Of a DNA stretch of 21,663 nt, positions 4,236 through 19,008 are shown in pieces. The DNA is from a virus. The notes beneath the pieces were generated by a model, which saw nothing but the letters and a program-made list of their open reading frames with translations, did not search any database and was not told the DNA's origin. The stretch is taken from positions 1 through 21,663 of IMG/VR virus record IMGVR_UViG_3300022698_000063. The stretch is one strand, 5' to 3'. How positions within the stretch are numbered: the stretch's first letter is position 1; each line of letters begins with the position of its first letter. The translations under genes and the position numbers were made by a program.

Positions 4236-5144
4236 TTATTGAACGCCCATCGGGATTCGCCTGAAGAGGTCCAAGCTACCCGTGTATGGGTCAACATAAC
4301 TGAATGCGTCGAAGTTGTCACTTATTTTGTACGAATAGTCACCGACCTTTTCACTCTCAAGGTACGGATTGAGGTCAATGTTGCCGAATGCGTCAGCAAC
4401 CGCCTTTGTTGCTATCTCGGTGAGAGAGGCTGGCAGGTCGGCCTCTTCATAGCCGCCTTCATAGATGACCACGAACGGCGTGTTCGACCCGAGCTTGACA
4501 CTTGCCCTGTAAAGGCCGTCTGTTTGCCTTGAGAGCCTGAATGCGTTGACACAGCCGTAAAGATACACATCGTCGGATGCGTCCTCCATCGGGCCTGAGC
4601 CAGCCGCAACAATGCATTTGGCCGGATAGGACGCGTAGTCCGCATCTGATGCCGTCGCTGTCCAGTTGGTCTCTGCCGAAATGGCCGTGATAAGGTCCTG
4701 AACCGTTGAAGAGTCGGTTATGGCTATCTCTGTTTTCGTCAGGTTCTCGACCAGTACCAACTTCTCGCCAGCAGTGAAGTCAACGTACCCAGAAGAACTT
4801 CCGTCATACTGGATGTCGATGATGGTCTGCATTCCATAGGCGGCATAGAGAACCGCGCTGACTGGCAGGTTGTCGAGAACGACAAGCTCTCCCTGCTTCC
4901 TGATTGTCGGGTAGTTGACCGAGTTCCAACCATTGTCGTCACACTGCATCTCGGGCCACCACGGCTCGTGAAGGTTGTCGCTTCCGTACTGAACGACGGC
5001 GTAGTTGTCCTTCGTGAAGTTCCGATTGCAATAGCGTGAGATTGCGTCATCGACGGCTGAAATCAGGTAGCCGAGAAGCGTGTCATATGTCGAGTCGGTC
5101 AGACCGAGGTATGCCTTGACTCTTGTAAGTGTCGTCAGTGCCAT
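4236..5144 (-). CDS. Head-tail connector (gp6/adaptor-like) with large central insertion
   Basis: The first 47 residues (MALTTLTRVKAYLGLTDS onward, with YLISAVDDAISRYCNR) match the start of the gp6-like connector family, whose members form the ring below the portal. The last part (LPASLTEIATKAVADAFG, then GDYSYKI) matches the helical end of the same family. Typical members have about 100-200 residues; this one has 302, because a beta-rich central segment of roughly 150 residues (about 70-220) is inserted. The ATG overlaps the stop of the upstream 586-residue gene (TAATG). The family call is good; what the insertion does is unknown. Confidence 0.8.
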   Translation of the reverse strand: MALTTLTRVKAYLGLTDSTYDTLLGYLISAVDDAISRYCNRNFTKDNYAVVQYGSDNLHEPWWPEMQCDDNGWNSVNYPTIRKQGELVVLDNLPVSAVLYAAYGMQTIIDIQYDGSSSGYVDFTAGEKLVLVENLTKTEIAITDSSTVQDLITAISAETNWTATASDADYASYPAKCIVAAGSGPMEDASDDVYLYGCVNAFRLSRQTDGLYRASVKLGSNTPFVVIYEGGYEEADLPASLTEIATKAVADAFGNIDLNPYLESEKVGDYSYKISDNFDAFSYVDPYTGSLDLFRRIPMGVQ

Positions 5145-6904
5145 TATTTAGCTCCTGCTTTCTGCCTCTCTTTAGTAGCTTCCTTGAGCGTCACCTTCTT
5201 GAACACGTCCAGTTTCGACTCAGGGTTGGCGTTGAGAATTTCCACTTCAGGAAACTTCTCCTTGATTTCCTTGGCCATTGTCTCCTGGCGACTGAGGAAT
5301 GCGCTGTACGTGTTGTCGCAGACGTACCTGATGTTCTCGTACCAGTTGCTTTCGCCGTCTTCGGCCTTGCACATGTCGAAGCCGAGCAGTACGATTTTCT
5401 TCGCGCCGCCAAGAAGGGCCAAGTTCAGGGCCGCAAAGCCGCTGTTCAGATTCCATGCAACCTTGGTCGGGTCGTCGGAGATTCCATCATTTGACGGAAA
5501 GACATTAACGACGCGTTCGTGCCTGATGCCGCTCGTCGTGTAAATTCTCTTCAGCCTCTTTTTGCCAAGAACGTCGGCTCTTTTTCTATTGAACCACACA
5601 TCGTCGCCGAAGAACAGGGTCTCTGCAAGCCCCAGTTCAAACGAGCCGTTAATCGCCAGACAGGTCTTTCCCTTCAGTTTTCTCTTCAAATCAACACCCT
5701 TCAGCGACGGCCCTCCACCGATGATGTAGACAGTCTCTCCGTCGCACCATTTCTCAACGCTCTTGTATGGTATCTCATCACCGCTTTTATTGGCCCTTGG
5801 AAGCCTCCACCTGACCTCGTGTGGTCGAGGCCTGCCATGAAAGCAAACCATATGGAAGTCTTCGGGAGATTTGCCCTCCTTTGTGATTTCCTTCTTAAAG
5901 CTGGCGATGTTGTAGAAGTCCTGAAATCTCATGACGTCGAGCTTTGACTCTTCACACCATTGCTCAATAAGCCTCTGGTCCCACTCGTCCGCCCTGGGTC
6001 TATGTTTGATTGCGTTCTCGTACAGGAATCGCTTGTCTTTTGGGTTGAAGAGCATGACGCCTGAAGCGAGCGACTCGGGATGAAGCAGGTCGCTGAGCAT
6101 CATGAAGTCTGCGTTGTCGGTCAGGATGCCGTCAAGGCCTGCCGTGACAATGGTGTCAAGGTCGAGGTAGAGGACGTTCCTGTAGTTGACCCACAGCTCC
6201 TCCCTGAACACCTCAAACTTCGAGTGCCATCCCTTTAGGTCTGATTCGAGAGGGATGCACCTGACGCCCTTGACGTTGATTTCCTCGGCCACGTCGGTCA
6301 GGCAGAAGAAGTCGAAATCTACGTGCTTGATGTTTTTCTTAACGCATTCAAACAGGTTCTTGACGTAGTTGTTGCAGTGGCTGTCGAAGTCGCCCCCTTG
6401 ACTGTAGACGCATACGACGGCGCTCTTCACTGCGTTTTTCAGCTTCAGGTCAATACCCTTGATGATTGCCGTTTGTGGGGACAGGGTCTTTTCAATCTCG
6501 ACAACGTTGTACGTGCCGAACAGGTCGATATTCCGCTCGGAGTACGTGTCGGCGTCGTGGACGGCAATGAACTGCGCATGCTTGACCAGCTTCGGCAGTT
6601 GTTTGTACCTGTCTTTGACCATCTGCTCGTTGTCCAGTAACACTAGATGTGTCGGCTTGTCCAGTTCCCATTTCTCCCAGTCTTCGACCCTTACGAACTC
6701 AGCCGCCTCGGCATAGGGCTCTACCTTCTTCTGCCACTGCCTGTCTTGATAGTAGACCGTGAAGTGCAGGCCCCTTGCCTTGGCGATTTCGTTCAGAACG
6801 AGCGTCGAGTAGAAGCCACATCCCATTTCTGCGATATGAGAGCCTATCGGCGCATTCAGTGCGTATCTGACCAGAATCCTTAAATGAGTTGCATAAGCAT
6901 CCAT
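5144..6904 (-). CDS. Three-domain putative glycan-modifying protein (methyltransferase-like + GT8-like + DUF115/Maf-like)
   Basis: This 586-residue protein looks like three enzymes fused. Residues 1-150 resemble a class I SAM-dependent methyltransferase or a degenerate relative (AEMGCGFYST at 25-34, then THLVLLD near 85-91). Residues 160-370 resemble a family 8 GT-A glycosyltransferase: VLYLDLDTIV with the metal-binding D-x-D at 248-250, SGVMLFNP at 281-288 and FHGRPRPHE at 355-363. Residues 390-586 resemble the DUF115/MptE/Maf-type Rossmann region: YIIGGGPSLKG at 393-403, LAINGS at 416-421, FFGDD at 431-435 and LGGAKKIVLLGFDM at 498-511. Some Maf relatives transfer nonulosonic acids to flagellin. 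The gene sits between major capsid and connector, so it should be expressed at late time. Substrate and activity are unknown. Confidence 0.75.
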   Translation of the reverse strand: MDAYATHLRILVRYALNAPIGSHIAEMGCGFYSTLVLNEIAKARGLHFTVYYQDRQWQKKVEPYAEAAEFVRVEDWEKWELDKPTHLVLLDNEQMVKDRYKQLPKLVKHAQFIAVHDADTYSERNIDLFGTYNVVEIEKTLSPQTAIIKGIDLKLKNAVKSAVVCVYSQGGDFDSHCNNYVKNLFECVKKNIKHVDFDFFCLTDVAEEINVKGVRCIPLESDLKGWHSKFEVFREELWVNYRNVLYLDLDTIVTAGLDGILTDNADFMMLSDLLHPESLASGVMLFNPKDKRFLYENAIKHRPRADEWDQRLIEQWCEESKLDVMRFQDFYNIASFKKEITKEGKSPEDFHMVCFHGRPRPHEVRWRLPRANKSGDEIPYKSVEKWCDGETVYIIGGGPSLKGVDLKRKLKGKTCLAINGSFELGLAETLFFGDDVWFNRKRADVLGKKRLKRIYTTSGIRHERVVNVFPSNDGISDDPTKVAWNLNSGFAALNLALLGGAKKIVLLGFDMCKAEDGESNWYENIRYVCDNTYSAFLSRQETMAKEIKEKFPEVEILNANPESKLDVFKKVTLKEATKERQKAGAK

Positions 6905-6944
6905 TGCCGCTTTTGACCTCCATAACAGTTAAAGCGGGCAGGCA

Positions 6945-6970
6945 GTCCTCCCCTTTTTACGGGGGAGGAC
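6945..6970 (-). promoter_or_regulatory. Hairpin between capsid gene and the following gene
   Basis: A perfect 9-bp inverted repeat (GTCCTCCCC / GGGGAGGAC) with an 8-base loop lies 21 bases after the capsid stop codon. No T-tract follows on either strand, so it is not a standard intrinsic terminator. It could protect the 3' end of capsid mRNA or reduce read-through into the next gene; both are inference. Confidence 0.55.
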
Positions 6971-6991
6971 ACACCATACTCAATTTTCAGA

Positions 6992-8302
6992 TTAGCTGGA
7001 GACGTCGCCGAGCGTGACGAACGCGCTCAGTGATGCACTGCCCTGGTTCGGGGTGATGACGTTGCTCCACATCGGGCGTCCGTTGTTCCTCATGACCCAA
7101 CGGGTGACCGTCTGGTCGGTGGTGAACTGGACGTGGATGGAGCTTGCCCGCTCGATTCCGCCCTTCTCAGCAATGACATACTGAGACATGTCGAACAGGT
7201 TCAGGTCGCCCTTGGTGCCCAAGGTTGAGGCCTGTTCCAGAATGCGGATGGGGCGTCCGAGCAACGTGCCGCTCGGTGCCGCGATTGCACCGCCGTTGCC
7301 GACGGGCGGCAGGAACACGGGCTGATTGCCGACCGTGATGCCCTGGAGTGCCGCATAGGCCGTGTTGGACACGAACCATTCGCAGTTGCGGAACCCGTTC
7401 GCCCACATACGAGCGTACATGTTGAACACGTCCGTTCCGCTGATGGCACCAGCGCCAGCACGGTTGACCGTGACCAGTGCGTCGTTCGAGTTGTCGAGGA
7501 TACCCAACATCTCGCCACTACCCGAACCACGAAGAGCTTCGTAGTCCAGCTTGTAGGAGAACTCGCGAACGAACCACTGCTCGACCACAGCCGCGAGGGC
7601 TTCACGGTCCATCAGCAACTCGTCGGTCGCATACCACAGGCCGACCAGCTTTTCGAGGTTGATGGTGATTTTGCCGAACTGCGGGGTCGACTTCGTCTTC
7701 GCGGCGGCTTCGCTGATACGATAAACGTTTACAGCGTGATTGCCGTCGGTGCGGTCGTAGTCGTCCAGCTCGGGATAGCTGATGCCGTTGGAGGCAGGAG
7801 CTGTCACCGGAATGCGGGTCGCGCCACGGGTGAGGACCAAACTGTTGAACAGATGGTCAACGATGCGGGTCAGGAACTGCGACTCGACGAGGTAGCCACC
7901 GTCTGCGTCCACTGCCTCTTGGTTGCCCAAGGCGGCTTTCATGGCCGAACGATGCTTCGAGAGTGCGTCCTGGTCGCCATGCGCCATGGCTTTCAGCATG
8001 TCACCGATGTGAAGCATTCCCTGCTTCGCATTCTTTTCCTTCTCGTCCTCAACGACCTCAAAGCGAACGCGAACGTTGCCATCTTGGTTGTTGGAGAGGG
8101 CCGACTTGACGGCTTCGGTGACTTCCTTATTGATGAGGCTCTTCAGGTTCTCGTCGGATTCCTCTTTCTTCGATTCCTCCTCGGGGTCCCAGTCCTCTGC
8201 GATTCCAGCGAGCTTCAGGGCCTTGGCGGTTTGCTCATCGACTTCGATGACGCTTCCAGCCTCAAACTCGTTCCACTTGCTCTTCAGTTTGAGCTTATTC
8301 AT
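6992..8302 (-). CDS. Major capsid protein, HK97 fold
   Basis: This 436-residue protein forms the icosahedral shell. From about residue 132 it shows the HK97-type core opening (DADGGYLVESQF), followed by the N-arm, E-loop-like and A/P domain segments (TINLEKLVGLWYATDELL, GTLLGRPI, FDMSQYVIAEKGG). Residues 1-40 look like a small separate domain (EFEAGSVIEVDEQTAKAL) of the FluMu-N-like type. Residues 40-130 are highly charged and probably the scaffolding delta region removed by the protease. The upstream gene is that protease. The ATG is preceded by AAAGG and the string GCAACACAATG, also found at the start of the 281-residue gene at 16447. Confidence 0.93.
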   Translation of the reverse strand: MNKLKLKSKWNEFEAGSVIEVDEQTAKALKLAGIAEDWDPEEESKKEESDENLKSLINKEVTEAVKSALSNNQDGNVRVRFEVVEDEKEKNAKQGMLHIGDMLKAMAHGDQDALSKHRSAMKAALGNQEAVDADGGYLVESQFLTRIVDHLFNSLVLTRGATRIPVTAPASNGISYPELDDYDRTDGNHAVNVYRISEAAAKTKSTPQFGKITINLEKLVGLWYATDELLMDREALAAVVEQWFVREFSYKLDYEALRGSGSGEMLGILDNSNDALVTVNRAGAGAISGTDVFNMYARMWANGFRNCEWFVSNTAYAALQGITVGNQPVFLPPVGNGGAIAAPSGTLLGRPIRILEQASTLGTKGDLNLFDMSQYVIAEKGGIERASSIHVQFTTDQTVTRWVMRNNGRPMWSNVITPNQGSASLSAFVTLGDVSS

Positions 8303-8437
8303 TGTGTTGCACCTTTGTTGCGGGTTTGGTTACTCGCAATCTTCCGCATGGGCCACGCTTATGTTCCGCTTTCACTGGGGCTACCAGCTTTCGGAGGCTT
8401 GCGCTCCACGCCGCAAAGATGCTTTGTTTGATAGAAC
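8303..8437 (-). other. Untranslated gap before the capsid gene
   Basis: These 135 bases separate protease and capsid, the longest gap inside the head genes. I see no credible ORF. Short inverted repeats are present, such as TTGCG/CGCAA around an 8-base loop. No clear -35/-10 pair was found. It probably serves as a structured ribosome-loading leader for the highly expressed capsid gene, which is inference. Confidence 0.4.
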
Positions 8438-9373
8438 TTAGATTTTTCCTTTGGCTAATTCAACAGCTTCATTGACAATTCTGTGAAGGTCTTGCTTCGT
8501 GTAGCTCTTCACCTTGTCGGGAGCCTTGATGAGTCTTGCGACGAGCTTTGGTGATTTTTTCTCTTCATCTTTGGACTCGACCTTTTCCTTCTGGTCGTCA
8601 TCGTCCTTCTTGTCCTTGGATTCAGAATCGTCATCTTTATCCTCGGGCTCGTCAGACGGCAGGTCCTTCAGCCAGTCGTAGTTGTCGTCCTCAATCTCAA
8701 TTTCGACACCAAGCTCACTCAGCGTCTTGGCTGTGATGTCAAGTTCTTTACTGCTGACGGCAAGGACGAGGGCGTCAATGTTTGCAGGGACGCTGACAAG
8801 ACTGTGTTCGAGCAACAGGCTCGTCATGATAATGGCGGATACTTCGTCAGCCTTGGCAGTCGTGAAATCATCCCACATCTCAACGAGCTTGTCAACGACC
8901 TTGCCATAGTTGTCAGAACCGTTCCTTACGGTTTTCATCGGGATAAAACCGATTGAAGAGGTTCTCAGGTGTTTGCCGTTTACGAGATTCCAGACCTCGT
9001 TGCCCTTGGCTGTCTCGGCGAACTCACTCTTCGCCATCAATCCATATCCGTCGGCCTTGATGTGCAGGTCGCTTCCAATCGGTGGCTCTTTCCATTGATG
9101 ACCCCACAAGAGGACTGGGGCTTTTCTGAAATGGCTGAGATTCACGCCGTTCGGGACGACGATTTCTTTGTCCCTGTCAATACCTCTTGTCGAGGCGTAG
9201 TTGATTGCGACCCTCTGGTCTTTGTCGGTGATTTCAAAATCATGCACGGACGGCCTTCTCTTCAGAATTGGCGTGTCGTCCTCGCACTGCTTCAGTGTGT
9301 CCTCAAGACCATCCTGCATTGGAGCTGGGAGCGCCCCGAGAAAACTGTCGCTGATTTTCAGTTTGGATTTCAT
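8438..9373 (-). CDS. Prohead maturation protease (HK97/U35 type) with charged C-terminal extension
   Basis: This 311-residue serine protease cleaves scaffold regions during head maturation. Signature segments are LLWGHQ with candidate catalytic His92, LRTSSIGF with candidate nucleophile Ser140, and LLLEHSLVSVPAN at 187-198 with the conserved Glu. Residues 238-290 are an extreme acidic/lysine tract (runs such as KDDDSESKDKKDDDD), and a basic helix ends the protein. The frame stays open to 9430, but the ATG at 9373 is preferred: it has TAGGAG 7 bases upstream, in which TAG is the portal stop codon, and the extra 19 residues look non-native. The charged tail may act as a fused scaffolding domain, as in other phages that lack a separate scaffold gene. 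Confidence 0.88.
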   Translation of the reverse strand: MKSKLKISDSFLGALPAPMQDGLEDTLKQCEDDTPILKRRPSVHDFEITDKDQRVAINYASTRGIDRDKEIVVPNGVNLSHFRKAPVLLWGHQWKEPPIGSDLHIKADGYGLMAKSEFAETAKGNEVWNLVNGKHLRTSSIGFIPMKTVRNGSDNYGKVVDKLVEMWDDFTTAKADEVSAIIMTSLLLEHSLVSVPANIDALVLAVSSKELDITAKTLSELGVEIEIEDDNYDWLKDLPSDEPEDKDDDSESKDKKDDDDQKEKVESKDEEKKSPKLVARLIKAPDKVKSYTKQDLHRIVNEAVELAKGKI

Positions 9374-10777: not shown

Positions 10778-12106
10778 TCACGAGTCCCATAATTCGTCGG
10801 CATCAATAATTTCCTGCATGCTCATCTCGTCTATTGGTTTTCTCTTCACGTCCTGACCAGAAACTCTTGGGTGAATTACCTGTGAAGAGCCCTCCGATAA
10901 GAATGTCAATCCCCACACGACAGCATCAAGTCTGCCAGGAGATTTCTTATTCTTCTCTGGATTGAATTCGCACAACTCATCCTCAAGGTCGACCAGATGC
11001 CCAACGTGATGAACAAGGCCCTGCTCATAGAGCGCGGCCATCGGTTCAGCCCTGACGTACTTGCCCCTGCTCGCCCTGACTTTCTCGACATTCAGTGAAG
11101 AGTCCTCGCTCCTGATTACTACCTCAACCATGTCAGCCCCGAAGTTCGTCTCGGCAACAACCGCATCGGCCAAATACTGATGGTACGCCTCGCTTACCTC
11201 CTGTGCCCATCTCGACGGCGGGGCAACCATGCTCTTGTCGTCCAGAACGTAATATTCATTATCAGCCGCTTGAGCGACGACAACAATTCCGCAGTTGTCT
11301 GAAGACTTCTTTCCAGTTCCTGACGGGTCTACCGCGACAACGACTCTTCTCAGGTCGCTTGGGCAACTCTCCACCCTTCCCTTGTCAATATCCTCACGCT
11401 TCCACAGGACCCCTTCGTCGCCTTCGGAGAAGTCTCCGTCAAGGAATCTCTTCTTCTGTCTGCGACCAAGAGTATTGAGCGTGTCGATGTACTCTTCATC
11501 AATGTTTTCAAGGTTGTCCGATGGGTTCAGCTTCATCGTGACCCAGTCATTCGGGTCGAACTTTACCGTCTCGTCCTCGGGTTGAACGTGCTCGATGAAA
11601 ACCTTGTATGTCCAGTGTCGCTTTGACGGCGGGTTGCAGTCAGCGAGAAGCCTGTTCGTCAGCTCGTTCTTTTCGGCCAGCCTCGTCCTGAGCAACTGAA
11701 CGCTATCCCATCCGACCTCACTGCATTCGTTGATGTACACCGTCGAAAACTCGAATCCAAGGACGTGTTCTTTTCGTTCGGAATCGTCAAGTCCAGCCAG
11801 CCATATCCTCGAACCGCAAATCTCAATGAACCAATCACTGCGGTTGATATGGTAAGGAACATCGGGAAAGCACATCTTCATCATCTGCGGGAATGACGTC
11901 AAGGCGATTTTCTGGCGGGCGTCCTTGTAGGTGCGCCTGACGACGCAATGAGTTGACGGCGTCATCATGGCCCTGATTGCAAGGGCTCTGACAATAAGGA
12001 GGGTCTTGCCACTTCGGGAGCCGCCGTAGAGAAGAATGTTGTGAGCGTTGCTTCCGAGGAGCCGATTAGCCTCCTTCTGCTTGCTGGTTTTCCTGAACCT
12101 GCTCAC
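10778..12106 (-). CDS. Terminase large subunit
   Basis: This 442-residue motor pumps DNA into the prohead and cuts it. The ATPase half has Walker A GGSRSGKT (28-35), Walker B VYINECSE (123-130) and a coupling motif LLADCNPP (153-160). The nuclease half has the acidic residues expected for an RNase H-like site: VAVDPSG (Asp260), ETNFGA (Glu319) and RLDAVVWG (Asp394). Length is normal for the family. The start is GTG at 12106, inside the end of the preceding glycosyltransferase gene (41-base overlap). The small subunit is not adjacent: it lies four genes upstream at 14665-15099. Confidence 0.95.
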   Translation of the reverse strand: MSRFRKTSKQKEANRLLGSNAHNILLYGGSRSGKTLLIVRALAIRAMMTPSTHCVVRRTYKDARQKIALTSFPQMMKMCFPDVPYHINRSDWFIEICGSRIWLAGLDDSERKEHVLGFEFSTVYINECSEVGWDSVQLLRTRLAEKNELTNRLLADCNPPSKRHWTYKVFIEHVQPEDETVKFDPNDWVTMKLNPSDNLENIDEEYIDTLNTLGRRQKKRFLDGDFSEGDEGVLWKREDIDKGRVESCPSDLRRVVVAVDPSGTGKKSSDNCGIVVVAQAADNEYYVLDDKSMVAPPSRWAQEVSEAYHQYLADAVVAETNFGADMVEVVIRSEDSSLNVEKVRASRGKYVRAEPMAALYEQGLVHHVGHLVDLEDELCEFNPEKNKKSPGRLDAVVWGLTFLSEGSSQVIHPRVSGQDVKRKPIDEMSMQEIIDADELWDS

Positions 12107-12959
12107 GGTTTTCCGCCCAGTTGGTGAAGAAGTCGATTATTCGTTTTGCTGGCTTGTCCCAGGTGAAGTGGATGACGTGCTCCCTGGCGATTCCTGACTC
12201 GTAGAGCTTTTCCGCGAGGCCCCATGGCACTTGGTTGTTGAACTCAATCGACGGAAGAACTTCCGCACGATTTTCGTTGAGAAACCCTTTCGGGTAGACG
12301 ACAACGGCTCCAGACATTGACGCTTCAAGGCATTGGAGACCGCAACTTTCACGATGGGTGACAACAAAGATTGCCGCCTTTCTCGTGATTGCCGCCATTT
12401 CTTGGTAGGGCACTTCTGCCGTTCTTTTAAACTCTTCAACTTCATCCTCTATTTCATGCAGGCCGTCAGCCAGCAGTCTCTTCACTTTGAATTTTCCATT
12501 GTACTTCCTTGCCTGCCCCAGTATTTCATCCATCATCGACTGTTGGTACTCGTTGTATGTCGGATGGTCCAGAATGATGTATTTTTCTTCATCTGGGTAG
12601 AACAGGGTCGGGTCAGCCGCCCAGTCGATATGGGTGCATCTCCTGCCTCCTGTTTGGTTTATCGTGAACGTCTGGTCTACGAACTTATCCTGTCTTGGAT
12701 TCTCAGCTATTTGAGCGACCGCGCCGTCGGTCAGTTCCTGCATGGCATCAGCACCGCCGTAATGGGAGAACCACCTGTTGCCAAACGCCAAGATGTGGTC
12801 GCAACCGCTCAGTCTGACTGCCTCGGCATTACTCCTCGCCCATACTTGCTCAATACCAATCTTGTCGAACTGCTCCGAAAGGTAGTACATGAAGACGCCA
12901 GAGAACGTGCTGATTTCGGTGATGTTTTTCGGCTTTATTCCGAGGCAACCAAGTTTCAT
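12066..12959 (-). CDS. GT-B glycosyltransferase, GT4-like
   Basis: This 297-residue protein likely transfers a sugar from a nucleotide donor. The C-terminal half carries the pattern of GT4-type enzymes: a DWAADPTLFYP segment (112-122) near the domain junction, VPYQEMAAITRKAAIFVV (183-200), and an E-x7-E motif ESCGLQCLE with Glu204 and Glu212, followed by ASMSGAVVVYP. The N-terminal half is short for a GT-B fold, as is common in phage versions. It overlaps the large terminase by 41 bases, so the two are translated together. Acceptor and donor cannot be read from sequence. The ribosome-binding sequence before its ATG is weak. Confidence 0.78.
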   Translation of the reverse strand: MKLGCLGIKPKNITEISTFSGVFMYYLSEQFDKIGIEQVWARSNAEAVRLSGCDHILAFGNRWFSHYGGADAMQELTDGAVAQIAENPRQDKFVDQTFTINQTGGRRCTHIDWAADPTLFYPDEEKYIILDHPTYNEYQQSMMDEILGQARKYNGKFKVKRLLADGLHEIEDEVEEFKRTAEVPYQEMAAITRKAAIFVVTHRESCGLQCLEASMSGAVVVYPKGFLNENRAEVLPSIEFNNQVPWGLAEKLYESGIAREHVIHFTWDKPAKRIIDFFTNWAENREQVQENQQAEGG

Positions 12960-12993
12960 AAGGTGAAGTTGCTTTCTTTGAAATTTATCGGAT

Positions 12994-13593
12994 TCACTTT
13001 TTCACCACGATGAGTTGGTTGTTCTCGAATCCAACAACGTCAAGCACGTCTCCCGATGACTCCATCCATTCCGACACGGCAAGAGAAGCATCGGTTTCCC
13101 TGCCAACGAACACGTCGTCAATCATCAGGAGACCGCCAGTGCTCAGCTTCGGCCATACCCAGGACAACCCAATCATGGTCGGCATGTACACATCAACATC
13201 AAGATAACAAAAGCGGAATAACGGTGGTTTGCCAATTTTATCTAAGATAAAATTCTCACACTTTTCCAGACACTCGGGGATGTAGCCTTCGTGGCAGTGG
13301 TATCTTTGGGGCTCGACGTTGTATCGGTCGAGCATGAGTTTCTGGAAACCCTCAACGCCGCCGACGTCAAACTTGCCCTTCGGGTAATTCCCCGAGTCCT
13401 TGTCCGTCTGCTTGTCCATGCCGATGAAGCTGTCGCAAGCATGAACCTTGCATGCAAGCCTGTCGGCCATCGGGACGAGCCTGTGGGTCGTACTGCCCTT
13501 GTAACAGCCTATCTCAATGATGTCTCCAGGAATCGTGGCGATGTGCTCTTCAATGAATGCCAGCTTCTCGTCAGAGGTTGCTCCAGTTCCCAC
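12994..13593 (-). CDS. TylF/macrocin-type O-methyltransferase-like protein
   Basis: This 199-residue SAM-dependent methyltransferase has motif I as EIGCYKGST (27-35), an acidic SAM-ribose position in HACDSF (51-56), the TylF-type YLDVDVYMPT (130-139) and GGLLMIDDVF (153-162). Relatives methylate sugar hydroxyls, with metal bound by Asp residues of the last two motifs. It starts at GTG 13593, directly after the TAA of the ribbon-helix-helix gene and with GGAGGG upstream. The next gene is a glycosyltransferase, which fits a sugar-modifying role. The exact substrate is unknown. Confidence 0.82.
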   Translation of the reverse strand: MGTGATSDEKLAFIEEHIATIPGDIIEIGCYKGSTTHRLVPMADRLACKVHACDSFIGMDKQTDKDSGNYPKGKFDVGGVEGFQKLMLDRYNVEPQRYHCHEGYIPECLEKCENFILDKIGKPPLFRFCYLDVDVYMPTMIGLSWVWPKLSTGGLLMIDDVFVGRETDASLAVSEWMESSGDVLDVVGFENNQLIVVKK

Positions 13594-13974
13594 TTATTCA
13601 CCCTCCGCCTTCAGGACTGGCTTCTTTTCTGACTCTCCCTGTCCTTTTTGCTCTTCTTCTTTTCCTTTTTCGTCTTCACCTTTGGTTGATTTTTTTTCAT
13701 CATCTTGTCGTTCTGGTTCCGCCATTGTGGTCGGGATGTGGTTTTTCTTGATGTAGTCATCCAGCTTTCCTTCCTTTGCGAGCGTAATTGCTTTTCCGAA
13801 GTCGAGGTCGCACGAGACGAGCTGTGCGCCGATGGCCTGACCCGTGTCTCTGGCAATGGCGTCGGCAAGGGCCTTCCTCGCGTATGCCGTTGGTGACGTT
13901 CCCTGGGCCTTGCAGATGGAGGCGATTGCCTGCTTCTGCGTCTTCTCAAGCCTGATTGTGATACTGCTTGCCAC
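13594..13974 (-). CDS. Ribbon-helix-helix protein with long charged tail
   Basis: Residues 1-45 (SSITIRLEKTQKQAIASICK, then GTSPTAYARKALADAI) fit a ribbon-helix-helix DNA-binding fold. Residues 85-126 are a low-complexity Lys/Glu tract, probably disordered. It starts at GTG 13974 with AGGAG upstream and is followed without gap by the TylF-like gene. It could be an Arc/MetJ-like repressor of late genes, or a DNA-binding packaging helper, because it sits between terminase genes. The fold is fairly clear but the role is not. Confidence 0.7.
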   Translation of the reverse strand: MASSITIRLEKTQKQAIASICKAQGTSPTAYARKALADAIARDTGQAIGAQLVSCDLDFGKAITLAKEGKLDDYIKKNHIPTTMAEPERQDDEKKSTKGEDEKGKEEEQKGQGESEKKPVLKAEGE

Positions 13975-14122
13975 TGCCTGTTTCTCCTCGTTTTAGCCTC
14001 AAAATCAATTTGAAGGCCATTTCCTTGCGTTCTGACGCATTTTATGGGTTGTTGCCGACAGGACGTCAGGGGATGGCCTGTTCGTCTCTCTGGCGTTAAA
14101 AGGGCTATACTGACGGTTGAAT
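13975..14122 (-). other. Structured untranslated gap before the ribbon-helix-helix gene
   Basis: These 148 bases contain a 7-bp inverted repeat (AGGCCAT 14014-14020 with ATGGCCT 14073-14079) that encloses a small hairpin TGCGT-4-ACGCA. No clear promoter was found. It may be a leader region bound by the ribbon-helix-helix protein itself, which is inference. Confidence 0.4.
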
Positions 14123-14668
14123 TTACGGCATACCTATCATGGCTAATCCGCGATTGCACATCTCGTCGTCCAAACTGCTCCTGTTGAATTTCAAATAGGT
14201 CAAGCCGAGTTGCTTTGCAAGGACCTCGTAACGCTTGAGCCCAGCATATTGCTCCATGTCAACATCATGGGCGAACAGAATACCACCGCTGGACAGCATC
14301 TTGATGACCTTGTCTGCCCATTCACCGCCCTGCCTGTGATTGCCGTCAACAACGATGAGGTCGTACTTTGCGCGACAGGAGATGACGAAATTTCTCTCTT
14401 CAGCAACGACAACATTGCATCCTCTTTTTCTCAGCTCTGCAATATGCCCTGGTTCATTGCCGTTCCAATCGTGCCAGTTGTCAACCGATGTCAAGGAGCC
14501 GATGCGGTTGTATTCAATTGCCAACAGGAGCATTTTCGTGACGAACCCAGCCCCGATGCCGAGTTCGAGTATGGTTGTCGGCTTGAGAGAGACTGCGGTT
14601 CCGTAAATGAGCGAGGCGTGACATTTGTCAATTGACACTGGGGTCCAATGGTCTACATGGGCACTCAT
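14123..14668 (-). CDS. Class I SAM-dependent methyltransferase (Methyltransf_24-like)
   Basis: This 181-residue protein shows motif I LELGIGAGF (34-42), an acidic ribose-binding position in SVDNWHDW (61-68), YDLIVVDGNHRQGG (102-115) and GGILFAHDVDM (128-138). The VDGNH plus HDV pattern is typical of the Methyltransf_24 group found near glycan genes. Its ATG overlaps the small terminase stop by four bases (ATGA), so the two are translationally coupled. The target is unknown, with sugar O-methylation the likeliest guess given its neighbours. Confidence 0.82.
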   Translation of the reverse strand: MSAHVDHWTPVSIDKCHASLIYGTAVSLKPTTILELGIGAGFVTKMLLLAIEYNRIGSLTSVDNWHDWNGNEPGHIAELRKRGCNVVVAEERNFVISCRAKYDLIVVDGNHRQGGEWADKVIKMLSSGGILFAHDVDMEQYAGLKRYEVLAKQLGLTYLKFNRSSLDDEMCNRGLAMIGMP

Positions 14669-17291: not shown

Positions 17292-17552
17292 CTATAGCTT
17301 CTTCGCGAGTTCGTCAAACTTATCATCGAAATATTTCCTATTGCACTCCAGTGCCTTCATGTCCTGCTCCATTTTGAACATCTGGTGTTCCTTGAGCCGA
17401 CATCCTGGGCACTCGCCGAGAGCTTCGTAGAACTTCTCAGGTGAAGAGAAGTCATCGTCGGTATAGCCGCATTTCCTCAGCCGCTCCTTCTGGGCCTTGG
17501 TCAGGCCAGTCAGCAGGGCGTGTACTGTGCATCTTGTAATCGGGTGGGTCAT
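17292..17552 (-). CDS. Unknown small protein with CPGC motif
   Basis: This 86-residue protein begins MTHPITRCTVHALLTGLTK. It contains a CPGC pair near residue 49 and further Cys residues near 8 and 30, which could bind zinc, and a charged helical C-terminus. The frame stays open to 17585, but the ATG at 17552 overlaps the methyltransferase stop in an ATGA arrangement and has GGGGAG upstream, so it is the chosen start. It is the last gene before the terminator. I do not recognise a family. Confidence 0.7.
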   Translation of the reverse strand: MTHPITRCTVHALLTGLTKAQKERLRKCGYTDDDFSSPEKFYEALGECPGCRLKEHQMFKMEQDMKALECNRKYFDDKFDELAKKL

Positions 17553-18076
17553 GATGCGTCTCCCCATGTTTTCGAGTCGTAGCACATCGTAACAAGCTCG
17601 TCATCTTTCGATTCGACTACGTCTAAACTGTCATAGCGGGCCCTCATGCGCTCAAGCCACCTGTCGGCGTCCATGAGACTGATATGGGCGTTCCTGCCGT
17701 CAGGAAGCACCGCATAGGCCTTCCTGAGCGAAATCACGTAGTAGGAGTGGAGGCCTAAAGTGGCAATGTCGTCCATGACGTCCTCTATGCAATCAGGCTC
17801 GACGTGCTCCATGACATCAATGCAGGCGACGACCTTGCAAACCCTTCGACCAAGCGGCTCGTGTACTGGGTCGTAGTTCCACACGTTGATTCGGCTGTCC
17901 TTCAACGCCTCCCCGAGACTGCCTGTTCCGCATCCGTAATCAAGGATGTCAGGAGCGTGGCATCCCTCTGCAAGGGTCAGGACGCCAGGAGCGTGACGAT
18001 AGCCAGAGTTTCCCCATTGGCTGTTTTCGTCCGTCATCTGCTTCAGTATTGCGAGATAGCCTTCAGTGATTAGCAT
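17549..18076 (-). CDS. SAM-dependent methyltransferase (Methyltransf_23-like)
   Basis: This 175-residue protein has a classic motif I DILDYGCGTGSLGEAL (43-58), an acidic position in WNYDP (66-70) and ACIDVMEHVEPD (84-95), the pattern of the UbiG/Methyltransf_11-23 group. It acts on a small molecule or sugar rather than DNA: no DPPY-like or PC motif of DNA methylases is present. It is the third gene of the operon, 3 bases after the winged-helix gene, with AAGAAGG ahead of the ATG. Unlike the two late methyltransferases it would be made early, so its target could be host or nucleotide related. Confidence 0.78.
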   Translation of the reverse strand: MLITEGYLAILKQMTDENSQWGNSGYRHAPGVLTLAEGCHAPDILDYGCGTGSLGEALKDSRINVWNYDPVHEPLGRRVCKVVACIDVMEHVEPDCIEDVMDDIATLGLHSYYVISLRKAYAVLPDGRNAHISLMDADRWLERMRARYDSLDVVESKDDELVTMCYDSKTWGDAS

Positions 18077-18079
18077 GGT

Positions 18080-18370
18080 TCAGCCTTCTTTCCTTGCCTG
18101 CATGAGCAGTTCCCAGCCCTTCTCCGTCAGTCGATAGAGGTATTTCCTGCCATATGGAGCAGATACGTCGATGAGGCCTTTCTTCTGCAATCTGTTGACT
18201 GCCTCTCTGAGATGGCTTCTGGCCCTGACTGTTCCAAGTAGGCGCTTGATGAACTGGTTCTGATTTTCCCCGAGCCAACCGCCGTGTTGTGCGATGACGT
18301 CGAAGACAGCCGCGTCAGCCGCCTCGCCGTTGCACTCCTTGACGACCCTTTCGTAGATGGTCAGCTTCAT
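18080..18370 (-). CDS. Winged-helix DNA-binding protein
   Basis: This 96-residue protein has the winged-helix pattern: helices in VVKECNGEAADAAVFDVIA, a recognition region RARSHLREAVNRLQKKGLI (49-67), and a wing SAPYGRKYLYRLTEKG (70-85). It is likely a transcription regulator of one of the divergent operons. Its ATG overlaps the HNH gene stop (ATGA), so the two are coupled. A winged-helix protein also starts the opposite operon (19009), suggesting a paired control circuit. The DNA site is unknown. Confidence 0.72.
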   Translation of the reverse strand: MKLTIYERVVKECNGEAADAAVFDVIAQHGGWLGENQNQFIKRLLGTVRARSHLREAVNRLQKKGLIDVSAPYGRKYLYRLTEKGWELLMQARKEG

Positions 18371-18840
18371 AGTGTTTCTCCTGGCATGCCATACTGTTCA
18401 GTCAGGAGCCAGCGGATTGCTGAACTGATTGACAACCCTTGAGACTTTGCGCATTTTACCCAGTGGTCCTTTTGCTTTACTGTCACACGAAGGGCAATCG
18501 TCTCTTTCCTGTTTGGGTCGTCGTGTTTCTTTTTTGGATTGTTGGACATTTTTTCCTTGTGATATGCGACGTGCTCTCCTTTGGTCATGATTTCAAGGTT
18601 TTCAATTCTGTTGTTATCACGAACCTCGTCAACGTGGTGGACGACGTGGCCGTCTGGAATATCGCCGTGATGAAAAATCCAGACGAGCCTTGACTCAGGA
18701 TGGGTCGTTCCGTCGATGAAGACATTTCGGTAGCCTCTCGTCGATGGCTTGCTGGCGATTTTGCCAGTCTCCTTCCAATACAAATTTCCATCCCTGTAGA
18801 ACAGCACGCTCTTTAGATAGTATTGAGTTGGCTTTGTCAT
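18367..18840 (-). CDS. HNH endonuclease fused to a ribbon-helix-helix domain
   Basis: This 157-residue protein carries an HNH-3 type core: RLVWIFHHGDIPDG (51-64), VVHHVDEVRDNNRIENLEIM (66-85) and GEHVAYH (88-94), with the metal and catalytic His/Asn residues in place. The C-terminal 113-150 (TIALRVTVKQKDHWVKCAKS, then GLSISSAIRWLL) fits a ribbon-helix-helix domain. The ATG at 18840, with GGAG 8 bases ahead, is chosen over the longer open frame to 18987, whose extra residues cross the promoter. Free-standing HNH homing endonucleases are common in phages. It could also regulate through its C-terminal domain. Confidence 0.82.
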   Translation of the reverse strand: MTKPTQYYLKSVLFYRDGNLYWKETGKIASKPSTRGYRNVFIDGTTHPESRLVWIFHHGDIPDGHVVHHVDEVRDNNRIENLEIMTKGEHVAYHKEKMSNNPKKKHDDPNRKETIALRVTVKQKDHWVKCAKSQGLSISSAIRWLLTEQYGMPGETL

Positions 18841-18877
18841 GTTTTTTACTCCATTTGTGTTTGGATTCCTTGACCTT

Positions 18878-18906
18878 AGCATACCTTTGATGTTATACGT
18901 TGTCAA
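18878..18906 (-). promoter_or_regulatory. Promoter of the minus-strand early operon
   Basis: On the minus strand a perfect TTGACA (18901-18906), a 17-base spacer and TATGCT (18878-18883) precede the HNH gene. It faces away from the plus-strand promoter 21 bases to its right, forming a divergent control region. Confidence 0.7.
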
Positions 18907-18926
18907 ACTTTTTACTACAAATGGCC

Positions 18927-18954
18927 TTGACTTACGATTGTGAAATACTATAGT
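18927..18954 (+). promoter_or_regulatory. Promoter of the plus-strand operon with palindromic operator candidate
   Basis: TTGACT (18927-18932), a 16-base spacer and TATAGT (18949-18954) precede the gene at 19009. The -10 box lies inside a perfect 12-base palindrome ATACTATAGTAT (18945-18956), a possible repressor site. Confidence 0.7.
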
Positions 18955-19008
18955 ATTGGTATCAACGGAGCAATCCGACAACATCAAACCTCATAAGAGG
19001 ACAGCATC

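Follow-up and report, generated by a model that had tools for sequence, protein, structure and literature searches.

A head-operon phage protein joining a GT8-like glycosyltransferase, a DUF115 domain and a predicted methyltransferase-like domain

Why would a tailed phage encode, among its head genes and directly after its major capsid protein, a single polypeptide that appears to combine three enzyme-like domains? The question is raised by the stretch of DNA analyzed here (the window), the 21,663-base IMG/VR record IMGVR_UViG_3300022698_000063, a fragment classed as virus. The window belongs to a tailed phage and carries an HK97-type head operon on the minus strand in the order TerS-like protein, large terminase, portal, protease, capsid, fusion, connector, head closure, tail tube and tape measure, where the names TerS, head closure, tail tube and tape measure are assigned from position and from relatives such as the locus L012 (IMGVR_UViG_3300035698_001849). 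A preliminary description of this DNA placed a 586-residue protein between capsid and connector, and the open reading frame and the matches of its flanking genes bear this out:

6992..8302, minus strand: gene of the major capsid protein, separated by 87 bp from the fusion downstream of it (PF05065, E 1.6e-35)
5144..6904, minus strand: fusion gene, 586 amino acids, with methyltransferase-like, GT8-like glycosyltransferase and DUF115/GT42-like parts (uninterrupted open reading frame; domain matches)
4236..5144, minus strand: gp6-like head-tail connector gene (PF05135, phrog_442)

The stop-to-stop frame of the fusion spans 594 amino acids, so that the N-terminus of the 586-residue protein as called is essentially complete. 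Given a GGAGG sequence 12 nt upstream of the ATG, and a stop codon that overlaps the connector start as TAATG, the fusion is very probably translated together with the structural genes. In GC content and GC3 the three parts resemble the adjacent genes and thus give no sign of chimeric assembly. The gap between capsid and fusion (6905-6991, minus strand) is predicted to fold strongly as RNA (MFE -34.1, z -4.07), with a GC-rich hairpin of 9 bp at 6945-6970 (minus strand) that has no T-tract, and a second hairpin that contains the ribosome-binding site of the fusion; as a result, less of the enzyme than of the capsid protein may be made. No near DNA match to the window was found among 50,697 phage records, and a full-length scan of IMG/VR returned no other protein with this three-part architecture.

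The proposed division of the protein (residues 1-155, 156-385 and 386-586) is supported, for the second and third parts by matches to known families and for the first by predicted structure only. The central part firmly adopts a GT-A, glycogenin-like fold, as had been proposed around a D-x-D site at residues 248-250:

5804..6424, minus strand: residues 161-367, GT8-like glycosyltransferase of the PHROG 1962 / P1 PmgQ family (profile and structure matches)
6155..6163, minus strand: D248-L-D250, the GT-A DxD motif (conservation in relatives)
5822..5842, minus strand: F355-H-G-R-P-R-P361 motif (aligned with the HFLGxxKPW region of glycogenin)

Residues 163-366 match positions 3-215 of the 230 in the PHROG 1962 profile (E 5.7e-28), and GT8 profile matches include the Skp1 galactosyltransferase 6mw5 (E 2e-8) and glycogenin (~5e-8). 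The AlphaFold model of the region has pLDDT values >90, and Foldseek relates it to GlyE (E 5e-10) and glycogenin (~3e-9) with a probability of 1.00. Across 163 dereplicated relatives D248 is conserved at 99% and D250 at 100%; the wider set K229, D248, D250, H356, G357, P359 and P361, all present in the fusion, is conserved at 93-100%. The FHGRPRP stretch aligns with the C-terminal HxxGxxKP motif of glycogenin, its His falling two positions later.

The C-terminal part was initially described as a DUF115/Maf-like Rossmann region:

5165..5752, minus strand: residues 385-580, DUF115, PHROG 4603, GT42 (Cst-II)-like (profile matches)
5339..5341, minus strand: Tyr522 codon (TAC), at a family position that is nearly always His (alignment)

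These residues belong firmly to the DUF115 family. PHROG 4603, annotated "alpha-2,3-sialyltransferase," matches residues 395-579 over profile positions 1-175 of 178 (E 1.3e-28), and PF01973 (DUF115, MptE-like) scores 19.5 bits for the protein and 21.4 for the domain, below its gathering score of 34.6 bits. On profile similarity (E 5e-6 with the joint profile, 9e-5 with that of the DUF115 domain alone), the domain is remotely homologous to the Cst-I/Cst-II sialyltransferases, Cst-II being of family GT42. The phage-family DUF115 profile gives weak matches to Maf (5mu5) and to MptE, and in light of these and the Cst-II match the domain is best called GT42-like.

Does this domain still catalyze a reaction? 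In at least 90% of the rows of the family alignment a His follows the GxD motif, where the fusion has Tyr522, and the surrounding segment DMCKAEDGESNWYENIRYVCDN contains no other His. (A pattern count of the same His gave 101/139, a crude figure with several false negatives that is secondary to the alignment.) In L012, the nearest relative, the His is present. This replacement of a near-universal residue makes the activity of the domain doubtful, and we see a real chance, a little short of even, that catalysis has been lost here and that the protein is in effect a GT8 enzyme with a methyltransferase-like domain in front and a DUF115 part reduced to binding. Against such a loss, the other conserved positions (G398, P399, S400, N419, D434, S488, G489, G508 and D510) are intact, and the His may have a role other than catalysis in this family. 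The DUF115 part may thus be altered or merely binding, and is not necessarily a working third enzyme; an inactive DUF115 domain would be compatible with the modification of virions considered below.

For the N-terminal part, the SAM-type domain originally suggested is recovered in the predicted fold, which matches methyltransferases, but not in any sequence family:

6437..6904, minus strand: residues 1-156, class I SAM methyltransferase-like Rossmann domain with the motif EMGCG (AlphaFold model and Foldseek)

A single-sequence AlphaFold model of residues 1-156 (pTM 0.70; confident for about residues 10-90, moderately so to 117) has its strands and helices in the Rossmann order. With it, Foldseek retrieves class I SAM methyltransferases, including 1nkv and RebM, with a best E value of 3.8e-5, the confidence of the model being modest and the query TM-scores ~0.35-0.5. 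No sequence relatives were found in Pfam, NCBIfam, PHROGs, phage records or the loci examined, and hhalign comparison with TylF and other methyltransferase profiles gave negligible scores. The sole return of a viral scan, L172, proved to be a 22-residue chance match in an unrelated large protein, and the Pfam matches to CHCH, Paxt-1_C and COX5B are likewise chance, being sub-threshold and biologically unrelated. On the strength of its modeled fold the domain is a probable methyltransferase.

The preliminary description expected a structural protein at this place and regarded such a polypeptide as unusual. Comparison with other phages changes this picture and shows the fusion to be less isolated than it seemed. 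We assembled 185 dereplicated loci carrying either domain, the window included; they were picked by similarity to the domains of the window, and there is no matched control family. Head genes were recognized with home-made profiles of those in the window. At least 78 of the 185 have a head or connector marker on the same strand close to the GT8 and/or DUF115 gene; the true figure may be higher, since the profiles are narrow and short loci are common. In the other 107 no head marker was recognized, in part for these same reasons. Within this similarity-picked, uncontrolled sample, 22 of the 24 loci with a recognized capsid gene have the GT8 or DUF115 gene downstream of it (13 of them within 500 bp), and the head-closure gene lies downstream of the GT8 or DUF115 gene in all 37 loci in which it was recognized. 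The slot between capsid and connector is therefore a favored site for these families, and no structural protein is "missing" from it; the idea that one must belong there is rejected, since relatives have other small genes, or neither domain, at this position.

In the stretches examined around the related capsid genes of L261, Dagobah, Kronos and ppBdUSDA122-1, neither GT8 nor DUF115 is present. From such operons it follows that the module is accessory, gained and lost at a preferred place. An accessory gene in such a slot might be a selfish or neutral cargo without a role in the virion, which we regard as highly improbable in view of the repeated joint occurrence of the same two families in unrelated phages, with catalytic motifs kept.

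This recurrence is extensive. IMG/VR scans with the profile of each domain yielded at least 476 and at least 546 confirmed candidates. In the loci examined the two families are repeatedly adjacent, often with an overlap of a few bases; mostly they are neighbors, sometimes they are fused, and sometimes other methyltransferases accompany them. The fusion reading frames in these loci comprise 6 GT8-DUF115, 2 DUF115-GT8, 6 GT8-DUF115-methyltransferase and 16 methyltransferase-GT8, counted as ORFs with some repeats (L131 and L173, for example, are the same contig). Such free shuffling of parts fits enzymes of one pathway. Four of the methyltransferase-GT8 proteins, of 788-958 amino acids (L016:2505-4868, L087:6204-8618, L150:5848-8340 and L164:13659-16532), have ~400 unassigned residues between their domains, perhaps a further glycosyltransferase. 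Among the loci examined, the exact order N-terminal domain-GT8-DUF115 occurs in the window only. What is new here is this three-part arrangement and the link of the GT8/DUF115 pair to the head operon, the parts themselves being known at family level.

The best matches to the model of the whole fusion include two predicted viral proteins of 685-700 amino acids that are annotated MptE-like. A close-relative scan of genome contigs found none; with a broader profile there were 12 loci, spread over Rhizobium, Nitratireductor and others. Relatives of PHROG 4603 and 1962 also occur outside the head genes in jumbo phages; in Caulobacter phages they adjoin tail genes, and in XacN1 they adjoin ribonucleotide reductase, away from the head genes.

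The closest comparison is with L012, whose GT8-DUF115 fusion is 35% identical to that of the window over both domains and stands in a related operon with homologous connector, head-closure and tail-tube genes. It lacks the N-terminal domain, however, and lies after the connector gene rather than before it, one gene further on. All three kinds of activity are combined in one chain, as in the window, in the GT8-DUF115-TylF fusions of L037, L051, L059, L068 and L085; here the methyltransferase is of the TylF type and C-terminal rather than N-terminal, and the DUF115 part is divergent. In XacN1 ORF373 and in Stenotrophomonas phage CM1 a methyltransferase precedes the same GT8 domain, as it appears to do in the window, whereas DUF115 is encoded separately upstream by one or more unfused genes; this methyltransferase, too, is of the TylF type and is not recognizably related to the N-terminal domain of the fusion. 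A further comparison is with the flagellin glycosyltransferase Maf, in which a central domain resembles Cst-II and an N-terminal domain carries weak methyltransferase-like motifs (PMC11339370). As described, Maf has no GT8 domain, which the fusion has in its middle, and its layout of Rossmann-like domain, Cst-II-like domain and helical bundle is not matched by the fusion model, which has no helical bundle.

Phage P1 holds the same families under another name. Its PmgQ belongs to the same GT8 family (PHROG 1962) as the fusion, and PmgO and PmgP are of the DUF115 type (PHROG 4603 and 2111). In P1, though, each protein has its own gene, a phosphatase gene (ppp) separates pmgP from pmgQ, no methyltransferase domain is present, and the neighbor is a baseplate gene where the fusion adjoins the capsid gene. 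These P1 genes (L005, 1138-2321 and 2995-3693) carry in the P1 record only the words "putative morphogenetic function." pmgO, pmgP and pmgQ are dispensable (PMC10695390), which fits decoration of the particle and, equally, superinfection exclusion.

Few phages have been shown to glycosylate their virions; those that we found are mycobacteriophages, in which glycans shield the particles from antibodies. Two papers (PMC12363180, PMC12619734) report glycosylated proteins in Che8, Corndog and Myrna, the former describing the Corndog virion as glycosylated. Corndog has an O-methyltransferase gene and three glycosyltransferase-type genes among its head genes, which are made in infected cells and have been proposed to modify the capsid (PMC4351075). 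Cluster J phages have 8-10 genes between capsid and connector, many of them glycosyl- or methyltransferases and one a methyltransferase-glycosyltransferase fusion (PMC3706429). The window thus shares with Corndog (gp35-gp38) and cluster J the placing of such genes within the head genes, although the Corndog slot is that between portal and protease, as opposed to capsid and connector. The enzymes themselves are apparently unrelated in sequence, as no mycobacteriophage appears in the 51 tblastn matches to the fusion at E 1e-3.

What, then, does the fusion do? It brings two glycosyltransferase-type domains, the GT8 motifs intact, into a head operon, together with a domain modeled as methyltransferase-like. 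The original idea of one polypeptide able to build, transfer and decorate a sugar loses its first element, since no sugar-building domain is present. We put at about even the chance that the fusion is a late-made enzyme that glycosylates and methylates one or more virion proteins of the phage. It would be a cytoplasmic multi-domain enzyme, produced late alongside the head proteins, whose most likely acceptor would be the capsid protein or one of its neighbors in head or tail, and whose product would be a short glycan, probably O-methylated. The GT8 domain would transfer sugar from a nucleotide sugar by means of D248, D250 and a metal; the DUF115 domain would bind another donor, which may be an acidic sugar activated with CMP, as in Cst-II and Maf, and serve as second transferase or, given Tyr522, as a binding domain; the N-terminal domain would methylate the sugar or the acceptor. 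Fusion would hold the steps together and couple them to capsid production. Three observations make virion proteins the favored acceptors: the gene lies in the head operon, other phages use this place again and again, and mycobacteriophages provide a precedent. Weighing on the other side are the relatives in jumbo phages that lie away from head genes, the 107 loci with no recognized head marker, the doubt that Tyr522 casts on the DUF115 domain, and the absence of recognizable kinship with the mycobacteriophage enzymes.

A serious rival, if in our estimation an unlikely one, is that during infection the enzyme alters a host surface glycan (lipopolysaccharide or capsule) and thereby blocks superinfection or keeps progeny from re-adsorbing to debris. 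Building lipopolysaccharide is a common role of GT8 and GT42 enzymes, the authors of a pelagiphage study favor this role for phage GT8 enzymes (PMC7029224), and the dispensability of the P1 genes fits it equally well. The position in the head operon, the late structural expression and the occurrence in many phages argue otherwise, as does the general annotation of the window, which shows no membrane anchor or flippase gene. Glycosylation of phage DNA bases against restriction, a frequent role of phage glycosyltransferases (noted in PMC12619734), seems very improbable indeed: the annotated ORFs of the window fragment include no hydroxymethyltransferase or other base-modifying gene, the nearest folds are those of enzymes acting on protein or sugar acceptors, and the head-operon position speaks against it.

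If virion proteins are indeed the acceptors, a wider and rather doubtful generalization can be offered tentatively: that GT8, GT42-like (DUF115) and an optional methyltransferase constitute a widespread, unrecognized virion-glycosylation module of tailed phages, P1 PmgO/PmgP/PmgQ included, often placed in the capsid/head-tail slot and repeatedly fused, with a Maf-like domain that initiates the glycan directly on a protein that self-assembles. Were this true, phages of many hosts would commonly decorate their capsids, the presence of DUF115 and GT8 behind the capsid gene would be a recognizable sign of it in the genome, and P1, with dispensable genes of the same families, would offer an immediate test.

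The window holds further sugar and methyl genes:

12066..12959, minus strand: group 1-like glycosyltransferase gene adjoining the large terminase (Glycos_transf_1, sub-threshold)
12994..13593, minus strand: TylF-type O-methyltransferase gene (PF05711, E 1.9e-9, above cut-off)
14123..14668, minus strand: Methyltransf_24 gene (PF13578, E 5.1e-11, above cut-off)

Together with a small gene they form a second sugar block (12066-14668, minus strand) between the two terminase genes. The glycosyltransferase family is present in 15 of 260 loci, and L131 carries in tandem, at 5630-8588, a DUF115 gene, a relative of this glycosyltransferase (ORF 6349-7326) and a GT8-DUF115 fusion, an arrangement that ties the family to the GT8/DUF115 module. 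The 12066..12959 glycosyltransferase probably acts in the same glycan pathway as the fusion, and the block as a whole, which would extend and methylate the same glycan, fits a methylated product. A further methyltransferase gene (17549-18076, minus strand; Methyltransf_23, PHROG 24759) has relatives fused to GT8 in L143 and L149, and an ORF at 18367-18987 (minus strand) contains, as judged by eye, the HNH-endonuclease-like sequence HHVDEVRDNNRIENLEIM.
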